Of a stretch of 64,000 bases of DNA, positions 32,640 to 35,518 are shown one piece after another. The notes below the pieces were generated by a model. That model did not search any database. It had not been told where the DNA came from and worked only from the letters and a program-made list of their open reading frames with translations. Within the stretch, counting starts at the first letter, position 1; every line of letters begins with the position of its first letter. The translations under genes and the position numbers were made by a program. Source of the DNA: Clostridia bacterium (GTDB lineage Bacteria > Bacillota > Clostridia > UBA1381); the NCBI GenBank assembly GCA_017621875.1, contig JAGASE010000001.1:1-64000 (forward strand), read 5' to 3'.

Positions 32640-33413
32640 TCAGTTTCCACATTCGATGGAAATTTCGTTAAATATTTTCAGGAAATCGTCAATGGTATGC
32701 TTTCTGCGTTCCTCGCCCTTTATATCAAGGACAATTCCGCCCTCGTGCATCATAACCGTTCGTGTACCGTATTCAACCGCGTGGCGGAGATTGTGCGTTA
32801 CCATAAGGGTGGTGATTCCCTTTTCCTTAACCACCTTGTCGGTAAGCGTCATAACAATATCACTGGATTTTGGGTCAAGAGCCGCCGTGTGTTCGTCCAA
32901 AAGCAGCAGAGTGGGAGTCTGCATTGTTGCCATAATAAGAGCGAGTGCCTGACGCTGACCGCCGGAAAGTGTTCCTGCCAGCGTTTCCATGCGGTTTTCA
33001 AGCCCCATTCCCAAAAGCTCAAGCTGACTGCGGTAAAAGTCGCGGCGTTTGGTGTTGAGACCTTTTGTGAGACCATAGCTTTTGCCCTTGTTATCCGCCA
33101 GCGACATATTTTCCATAATAGTCATGGACGGACATGTGCCGGTCGACGGATTCTGAAACACTCGTGCTATCTTTGCCGCACGCCTGTAGTTTTTATGCTT
33201 TGTTATATCGCGACCGTCCAAAATAACACTGCCGCTGTCGGGCTGAATATCGCCCGAAATAATATTAAGAGCAGTGGTTTTGCCCGAACCGTTACTGCCT
33301 ACGATTGCAACAAATTCGCCGCTTTCAATTGTAAGGTTAAAGCCTTCAAACAGGATTTTCTCATCTATTGTTCCTGCGTTAAATTTTTTGTTTATGTCTA
33401 AAAGCTCAAGCAT
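32640..33413 (-). CDS. TrpXYZ-type ABC transporter, ATPase
   Basis: 257 residues from the ATG at 33413 (MLELLDINKKF) with GGGAGG eight bases upstream. The GTG two codons earlier sits too close to the ribosome binding site. Walker A is VGSNGSGKTT, the signature TLSGGQRQALALIMA and Walker B LLLDEHTAALDPKS. DEHTAALDP, with His after DE, is typical of this importer group (BmpA/TrpX-type systems). It overlaps the permease gene by 8 bp. Confidence 0.85.
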   Translation of the reverse strand: MLELLDINKKFNAGTIDEKILFEGFNLTIESGEFVAIVGSNGSGKTTALNIISGDIQPDSGSVILDGRDITKHKNYRRAAKIARVFQNPSTGTCPSMTIMENMSLADNKGKSYGLTKGLNTKRRDFYRSQLELLGMGLENRMETLAGTLSGGQRQALALIMATMQTPTLLLLDEHTAALDPKSSDIVMTLTDKVVKEKGITTLMVTHNLRHAVEYGTRTVMMHEGGIVLDIKGEERRKHTIDDFLKIFNEISIECGN

Positions 33414-34287
33414 TTTCACTGCCTCCCTTCGGCTTGGATAAAACGTTGTTTAAGAGAAGAGTTAAAAGGAAAAGCAGAGTGACCACAAGCTTTGTATCGG
33501 AGGACTGAAGTCCCGAGGAAATCGCAATAGTGATACATGCCTTGTAGATGACCATTCCGAGAATAACTCCTGTTGTAACCTTTAAAAATCTCAGTTTTTT
33601 GAAAACCGTTGTGCCGATAATAACTGCGGCAAGCCCCATAACCATAGTACCCGTACCCGATGAAATATCGAATTGCATTGTACGCTGGCAGTAGAGTGCC
33701 CCCGAAAGTCCTACAAGACCGTTCGCGATTGCAAGACCGATAACTTTGATTTTGCCGGGATTTTGTGCGAGTGTTACAACCAGTCCTTCATTATCGCCGA
33801 CGCTTTTTAACAGGAATCCCGATTTCGTTTTCAGATATAAATCAAGCAGAATTTTTACTGCTATGGCGATTATGAGCAGAATTATCAGATATCTGTACGC
33901 ATGCAGCGGATTGCCTTCGGGGATAATATCAAATATGGTCGGAAGCCCCATCAGAAACTCATTCGGGGAGCCGACGATGCGGTAGTTTATCGAATAAAGA
34001 CCCGTCATAACAAGAATGCCTGATAAAAGGTCCTTTATTCTCAGCTTGATATGTAAAAAACCTGTGATACAGCCGGCGATAACTCCTGCCGCGGTTGCTG
34101 CAATAAGGCAGAGCCACGGATTTACGCCTAAAGTTACCAAAGCCGCACTGATTGCCGCACCAAGCGGAAATGTTCCGTCAACCGTAAGGTCGGGGAAGTC
34201 TAAAATTTTATAGCTGATATAAATTCCGAGAGCCATAATTCCATAGATAAACCCCTGCTCCAAAATTCCAATTAAAATACCTGACAT
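33406..34287 (-). CDS. TrpXYZ-type ABC transporter, permease
   Basis: 293 residues with eight or nine membrane helices, related to the branched-chain/LivH-type permease fold (FPDLTVDGTFPLGAAISAAL near the N-terminus, ANGLVGLSGALY in the coupling region). GAAAGGAATTTTTTT precedes the ATG. It follows the binding-protein gene after a 77-bp gap with a strong hairpin. Confidence 0.85.
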   Translation of the reverse strand: MSGILIGILEQGFIYGIMALGIYISYKILDFPDLTVDGTFPLGAAISAALVTLGVNPWLCLIAATAAGVIAGCITGFLHIKLRIKDLLSGILVMTGLYSINYRIVGSPNEFLMGLPTIFDIIPEGNPLHAYRYLIILLIIAIAVKILLDLYLKTKSGFLLKSVGDNEGLVVTLAQNPGKIKVIGLAIANGLVGLSGALYCQRTMQFDISSGTGTMVMGLAAVIIGTTVFKKLRFLKVTTGVILGMVIYKACITIAISSGLQSSDTKLVVTLLFLLTLLLNNVLSKPKGGSENA

Positions 34288-34364: not shown

Positions 34365-35363
34365 TTATTGATTGCTCTGAACAGCTACAGCATTTGCTAA
34401 AACATCTTCGGGAAGTGTTATGCCAAGCTTTTCAGCAACGCCCTTGTTAACTGTGATTTTTGATTCCTTTAAGGTTTCGTAAGGAATATCTGAAACTGCC
34501 TCGCCCTTTAATACTCTGGCCGCCATAATTCCTGCCTGCTTGCCCAGCTCGACGTAGTCAAGACCTGCAGATGCAATACAGCCGTTTTTGACCTGCTCTT
34601 CCTCCGAGCCGAAAACAGGGATATTGCTCGCATTTGCCTTGTCAAGAACAACCGCAAGGGCGGAAACTACTGTGTTGTCGGTCATGTTTGAGATGCAGTC
34701 AACCTTGCTCATCAAAACGTCCGCCGCCTGTGCAACCTCTGCCTCTGTGCCGATACCGATTGATTCAATTTCAAAGCCGTAAGCCGGTGCCTCCTGCTTG
34801 TAAACCTCGATTGTGCTTACAGAGTTTGACTCACTGGTTGTGTATATAATGCCGATTGTTTTTGCATCGGGAAGAACGCTTCTTATAAGGTTTAATTGGT
34901 CGGTTACAGGGAGACGGTCACTAACGCCTGTAATGCCGTTCATCGGTTCTGTTTCACTGGTGGCAAGCTTTGCCGCAACCGGGTCGGAAACTGCGTTAAA
35001 GATTACCGGAATCCCCTTTTCAAGGCATGCTGCATAAAGTGCCTGTGCTGAAGGCGTTGCTATACCGCAAACCAAATCCTTGCCGCTGTTTGCAAAGGTC
35101 TGGGCGATTTGTGTGTTCGCCGCCATATCGTCCGAGGCTGACTTAAATTCAATTTCAATATTGTCGCCTTCGGTAAAGCCCTCGCCTGCCAAGCCTTCAA
35201 TAAAGCCCTCACGGCAGTTGTCAAGGGAGGGGTGGTCGGAAATCTGCGTTATACCGATTTTATAAACGTTGGCGTTATTATCCGATGTCTGCTCGCCGCA
35301 GCCGGCAAGTGCCCCAAAAGCTAAAATTCCTGCCATTGCCATTGCTAATCTCTTCTTGTTCAT
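34365..35363 (-). CDS. TrpX-type ABC transporter substrate-binding lipoprotein
   Basis: 332 residues. The lipobox ALAGC puts the lipidated cysteine at residue 22. The mature part is an ABC_sub_bind (PF04392) protein with two Rossmann-like lobes (KIGITQISDHPSLDNCREGF at the start, GKDLVCGIATPSAQALYAAC, GSEEEQVKNGCIAS). In Streptococcus, proteins of this family bind tryptophan (TrpX). The TRAP-like leader in front of the gene supports tryptophan as substrate. The ribosome binding site GGAGAGATGAG overlaps one of the triplet clusters. Confidence 0.85.
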   Translation of the reverse strand: MNKKRLAMAMAGILAFGALAGCGEQTSDNNANVYKIGITQISDHPSLDNCREGFIEGLAGEGFTEGDNIEIEFKSASDDMAANTQIAQTFANSGKDLVCGIATPSAQALYAACLEKGIPVIFNAVSDPVAAKLATSETEPMNGITGVSDRLPVTDQLNLIRSVLPDAKTIGIIYTTSESNSVSTIEVYKQEAPAYGFEIESIGIGTEAEVAQAADVLMSKVDCISNMTDNTVVSALAVVLDKANASNIPVFGSEEEQVKNGCIASAGLDYVELGKQAGIMAARVLKGEAVSDIPYETLKESKITVNKGVAEKLGITLPEDVLANAVAVQSNQ

Positions 35364-35484
35364 ATCTCATCTCTCCTATTCTGCACTTTCGTGCTGTCTA
35401 AAATTAAAAAATCTCAGAACAGATTAGTCCTGAGGCAAGCAAATATAAAATATTAAAAAACTATTCTCATCTAATCTATTCTGT
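35364..35484 (-). promoter_or_regulatory. TRAP-like attenuation leader of the tryptophan-type transporter
   Basis: Read on the minus strand, the leader starts near 35484. Triplets UAG, UAG, GAG, UAG spaced by exactly two bases (35481-35461) overlap CAGAATAGATTAG (35483-35471). That segment can pair over 13 positions (one G-U) with CTAATCTGTTCTG (35427-35415) as an antiterminator. The alternative is a terminator: CTCAGGAC (35434-35427)/GTTCTGAG (35420-35413) with loop TAATCT, followed by ATTTTTT. A second cluster UAG-GA-GAG-AU-GAG (35380-35366) covers the ribosome binding site of the lipoprotein gene. This is the logic of the Bacillus trp leader: TRAP bound to the triplets frees the terminator and blocks translation. 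TRAP itself (mtrB) is not in the window. Confidence 0.6.
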
Positions 35485-35489
35485 AAAAC

Positions 35490-35518
35490 ATTATATACCC
35501 ATGTTTTAAATTTGTCAA
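35490..35518 (-). promoter_or_regulatory. consensus promoter of the transporter operon
   Basis: On the minus strand TTGACA (35518-35513) and TATAAT (35495-35490), all twelve positions at consensus, 17-base spacer. A promoter this strong is expected when control is exerted after initiation by attenuation. Confidence 0.9.

Follow-up and report, generated by a model that had tools for sequence, protein, structure and literature searches.

A putative TRAP-controlled attenuator, with a second triplet cluster over the Shine-Dalgarno sequence, precedes a TrpXYZ-like ABC transporter operon in a Clostridia bacterium

The window analyzed in this study is a stretch of 64,000 nt from a gut-type Clostridia bacterium (UBA1381; assembly GCA_017621875.1, contig JAGASE010000001.1, positions 1-64,000, forward strand). 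A three-gene ABC transporter operon is encoded on its minus strand and consists of a TrpX-like substrate-binding protein (34365-35363; PF04392, E 7e-85), a TrpY-like permease (33406-34287; PF02653) and a TrpZ-like ATPase (32640-33419; PF00005). The first-pass annotation, made from the sequence alone, had called these genes TrpXYZ-like. The three domain matches agree with this, and TrpX is the sole NCBIfam match of the substrate-binding protein; however, its score of 291.7 bits is under the cut-off of 390, and specificity for tryptophan is therefore graded as probable.

A leader of about 120 nt lies directly 5' of the operon on the same strand. It follows a promoter (35490-35518) with TTGACA at 35518-35513, a 17-nt spacer and TATAAT at 35495-35490, which matches the consensus at 12 of 12 positions. 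The first triplet cluster (35461-35483), the proposed TRAP site, reads CAG-AA-UAG-AU-UAG-AU-GAG-AA-UAG and comprises five NAG triplets with exact 2-nt spacing, four of them GAG/UAG; it is kept in relatives. The first three triplets form the 5' strand of a 13-bp antiterminator (35483-35471 pairing with 35427-35415), to which the fourth triplet adds four further pairs. The 3' strand of the antiterminator overlaps the loop and the 3' arm of an intrinsic terminator hairpin of 8 bp (35413-35434; stem 35434-35427/35420-35413), which is followed by six T read from the sequence (35406-35411). Further downstream, a small hairpin GCAC-GAAA-GUGC (35383-35394) stands just before the second cluster, CAG-AA-UAG-GA-GAG-AU-GAG, again with 2-nt spacing (35366-35383). 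This cluster covers the Shine-Dalgarno sequence AGGAG (35377-35373), and the ATG of trpX follows at 35363. All these elements, namely the perfect promoter, the spaced triplets on the antiterminator strand, the competing terminator and the second triplet run over the ribosome-binding site, had been described in the first-pass annotation and were confirmed.

Other features are found upstream of the promoter. A 39-bp non-coding stretch, GTGGTGGTATATATGATAAAAGGGTAAATGATAGTATGC (window 35614-35576, minus strand), is identical in three species (also L017:1252-1290 and L018:1255-1293), whose TrpX proteins are 73-78% identical. After it comes an inverted repeat, ATAGTATG/CATACTAT, whose loop varies. 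Searches of viral, phage and plasmid collections with this region gave no match of note; the stretch is possibly an operator or a small RNA. A tyrosine integrase gene (PF00589; 36944-38131, minus strand) next to ychF, about 1.4 kb 5' of the trpX promoter, marks a possible edge of an integrated element.

The triplet pattern is rare by chance. The window contains a single instance of the four-triplet pattern, where chance would give 0.05, and a single instance of the five-triplet pattern, where chance would give 0.01. The strict four-triplet pattern has two occurrences in the whole 2-Mb genome; the second match (L007, contig C1) was rejected as another such leader, its surroundings not being a leader of that kind. 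The leader folds more stably than 200 of 200 shuffled sequences (z -2.9), and the pairing of the triplet block in the antiterminator reaches -21.9 kcal/mol, compared with -9.2 +/- 2.1 when the downstream sequence is shuffled (z -5.9). In our own leader, the same-genus leaders and L026, L028 and L029, the free RNA is predicted to form the antiterminator and, when the triplets are forced unpaired, the terminator.

Comparison with relatives displays a similar picture. The terminator is paired in 64 of 64 cells across eight near species, and two of its pairs carry changes on both sides. In this near set, the antiterminator is 95% paired and also has two such pairs, a modest signal that shuffles often match. 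The antiterminator pairing stands at z -3.2 to -6.8 in our own leader, L017-L023, L026 and L029. The design is not universal, because the pairing is within chance in L027, L030, L146, L147 and L149. In distant relatives, leaders of the L026 type carry other triplets (GAGAUGAGAUG) together with a correspondingly different 3' strand of the antiterminator, and thus the architecture is kept while the sequence has changed. Loss of the triplet spacing with retention of the hairpins in close relatives had been named as an outcome that would speak against the proposal; instead, six species of the same genus and Candidatus Avimonoglobus retain both the spacing and the hairpins. Counting NAG triplets, the two clusters have 5+4 members in our own leader and in L018, against 6+3 in L026, L028 and L029.

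A total of 51 relatives of the substrate-binding gene were retrieved for the leader comparison. Triplet runs were found in leaders L017-L030 and L059 with p of 0.003 to 0.017 by shuffling, L024 being the weakest. Among the relatives with a TrpX homologue, TRAP was found in 13 of the 15 genomes with triplet leaders, our own counted, versus none of the 36 others, which include one with a masked leader (Fisher ~2e-10, a p-value that, like the others, overstates independence because the genomes are related). The two triplet-leader genomes without a detected TRAP gene are MAGs, G020 (0.9 Mb) and G050, and genome incompleteness may account for the absence. TRAP-bearing L150, L151 and L152 have no triplets 5' of their TrpX homologue. 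The joint pattern of TRAP and triplets spans several families (same-family, f12, f18, f19, f39, f74 and f79 genomes).

Many of the TRAP-lacking relatives possess a T-box at the same place, 5' of the trpX homologue (L045, L048, L050-L053, L058 and L060-L065). The occurrence of TRAP leaders here and of T-box leaders in relatives lends support to the tryptophan specificity of the transporter. The T-box leaders often have a short ORF, with a Shine-Dalgarno sequence and Trp codons, in the interval from the T-box to trpX; it was also seen in L036, L043, L049 and L054. Many of these ORFs contain CGATGGCG (Arg-Trp-Arg) and others Gly-Trp-Trp. They resemble the leader peptide of Bacillus rtpA, which also contains Trp codons, and may act as a second tryptophan sensor.

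The association was further examined genome-wide in Clostridia. TRAP genes are present in 88 of 391 sampled genomes, about a quarter. The pattern of five GAG/UAG triplets was found in 47 of the 88 TRAP-bearing genomes versus 24 of the 303 TRAP-lacking ones (p 4e-19). For the backwards pattern, a control contaminated in part since runs of GAG fit the reversed pattern as well, the figures are 23 of 88 versus 51 of 303 (p 0.04). Most of the runs examined in TRAP-bearing Clostridia precede trp genes, including trpE, trpD, trpB, a TrpB-like enzyme and TrpP. Of the matches in TRAP-lacking genomes, several consist of simple repeats, for example (TAGGT)n and (GAGCA)n. In two TRAP-bearing cases, L119 and L136, triplet runs are located at the starts of a methyltransferase-like gene without Pfam match and an amidohydrolase gene; these genes are possible new TRAP targets, or the runs are due to chance.

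The first-pass annotation had proposed a search of the genome for mtrB, the absence of which would have weighed against its reading, and for rtpA. TRAP is indeed encoded in the genome (PF02081, E 6.3e-37; G000:C14), and the solved structures nearest to it are those of TRAP/MtrB. No anti-TRAP gene (rtpA, PF15777) was found in the genome, which is estimated to be 92.6% complete, and no triplet run was found at the TRAP locus itself (L114). T30, T49, T52, K37 and K56 are invariant in the 42 TRAP proteins read out; in B. subtilis numbering, T30, T49 and T52 are positions of the tryptophan pocket, and K37, K56 and R58 are RNA contacts. Position 58 is Arg in 30 of the 42 proteins, Lys in two and Asn in ten. 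Our own TRAP (L001) has Asn, where Bacillus has Arg, and the Asn58 lineage further contains L068-L073, L075, L085 and L094. A link of Asn58 to the division of the triplets into two clusters was dropped, as L026-type genomes combine Arg58 with a split site.

A search for triplet runs ahead of trp biosynthesis genes of the same genome had also been proposed, and none was found. Searches for trpE were negative in seven genomes of the genus, of which three are 90% complete or more, and the only trpB of the genome, a stand-alone gene, has no triplets 5' of it. Four-triplet searches across the genus mainly returned the trpX leader. Because trpE was not found and only a stand-alone trpB without triplets is present, we infer that TRAP here probably governs tryptophan uptake in a tryptophan auxotroph.

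Taken together, the leader very probably attenuates transcription under the control of TRAP and carries a second TRAP-type site across the ribosome-binding site, as the first-pass annotation had read it. What is observed comprises the leader elements and how they are conserved, the two mutually exclusive folds, a TRAP gene in the genome, its co-occurrence with triplet leaders, and the position of such runs before trp genes; from these we infer that TRAP binds, that tryptophan is needed for its action, and that the transporter carries tryptophan. When tryptophan is scarce, TRAP would be inactive, and the first cluster would pair with the region before the U-tract to form the antiterminator, so that transcription proceeds into the importer genes. 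With ample tryptophan, TRAP that has bound it would wrap the first cluster and bar the antiterminator; the terminator would then form and transcription would stop. On transcripts that escape, TRAP bound to the triplets over the Shine-Dalgarno sequence would also block ribosome binding. Several observations count against a TRAP attenuator, namely the 5+4 triplets in place of the 9-11 usually bound, Asn58 instead of Arg, and the exceptions among relatives given above: G020 and G050 without a detected TRAP gene, L150-L152 without triplets, and the five leaders with pairing within chance.

The alternatives differ greatly in weight. T-boxes do control the same operon in relatives, and a T-box likewise governs Streptococcus suis trpXYZ (PMC9382623), which might suggest that our leader is a T-box or another known RNA switch carrying incidental triplets. 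This is scarcely credible and largely refuted already: no Rfam family matched the leader even at permissive thresholds, RF00230 included, though T-boxes were detected elsewhere in the genome; a leader of about 120 nt is too short for a T-box; and the triplets track with TRAP. It is somewhat less far-fetched, but still very improbable, that the same switch between antiterminator and terminator is worked by some protein distinct from TRAP or by a leader peptide with Trp codons. Asn58 might mean a changed RNA recognition by TRAP, and two-hairpin leaders of a similar kind are used by other antiterminator proteins. However, GAG/UAG triplets at 2-nt spacing are the signature of TRAP and co-occur with it across several families, and no ORF with Trp codons was noticed on inspection of the leader.

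The second cluster deserves more doubt. GAG is a natural part of a Shine-Dalgarno sequence, and the cluster is absent from some relatives (L025, L027, L146, L147 and L149), so it might be merely a purine-rich Shine-Dalgarno sequence, with attenuation of transcription operating without translational control. We consider this unlikely, since three spaced GAG/UAG triplets were found at the trpX start only, one of 46 Shine-Dalgarno-bearing ORF starts in the stretches of our own genome examined, and GAGAU(G/U)AG over the Shine-Dalgarno sequence is kept in eight of eight near relatives. The stem of the hairpin before this cluster is GCAC/GUGC here, and GCGC/GCGC and AUGC/GCAU in sister species.

Within the reading as a TRAP-controlled leader, the total of about nine triplets suggests that one TRAP ring could bind both clusters. 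We tentatively propose, as a possible but doubtful extension, that a single ring occupies the two clusters with the terminator region looped out, so that one occupancy would terminate transcription and then block translation of the escapees. In this case, the split site would serve a TRAP regulon that has shrunk to the uptake of tryptophan in an auxotrophic host, and the RNA contacts may be altered (Asn58).

TRAP, a ring-shaped tryptophan sensor, is a textbook regulator, and nearly all work on it concerns Bacillus. TRAP senses free tryptophan, while the T-box senses uncharged tRNA-Trp. Searches of the open-access literature found no paper on clostridial TRAP regulons and none on control of trpXYZ by TRAP. 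Our results suggest that TRAP control is common in Clostridia, reaches trpXYZ-type importers and can persist where trpE is not found. The same operon in related bacteria appears under two unrelated sensors, TRAP or T-box, and the choice between them thereby becomes a testable question. Tryptophan uptake by gut bacteria may, moreover, touch the tryptophan supply of the host.

In B. subtilis, the trp operon is regulated by TRAP-mediated attenuation (PMC3913778). Like the leader of B. subtilis trpEDCFBA, the leader reported here places GAG/UAG triplets with 2-nt spacing on the 5' strand of an antiterminator, followed by a competing intrinsic terminator. It differs from that leader in having five triplets rather than eleven, in preceding an ABC importer rather than biosynthesis genes, and in the second cluster directly on the Shine-Dalgarno sequence; no anti-TRAP was found in the genome, the host is an apparent tryptophan auxotroph, and its TRAP has Asn at position 58. 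TRAP also blocks ribosome binding at B. subtilis trpG and trpP, according to works cited in PMC4347634, where trpP is given as a tryptophan transport gene (Yakhnin 2004). The translational control of trpP (yhaG), trpG and ycbK by TRAP in Bacillus resembles the second cluster in that triplets cover the ribosome-binding site, and trpP likewise transports tryptophan; here, an upstream transcription attenuator is added and the importer is an ABC transporter of the TrpXYZ type. A further counterpart is the T-box-controlled trpXYZ of S. suis (PMC9382623), which shares the type of transporter and a premature-termination switch for tryptophan supply, a response that our leader would share. The S. suis T-box responds to uncharged tRNA-Trp, whereas the proposed sensor here is TRAP and the signal would be free tryptophan.
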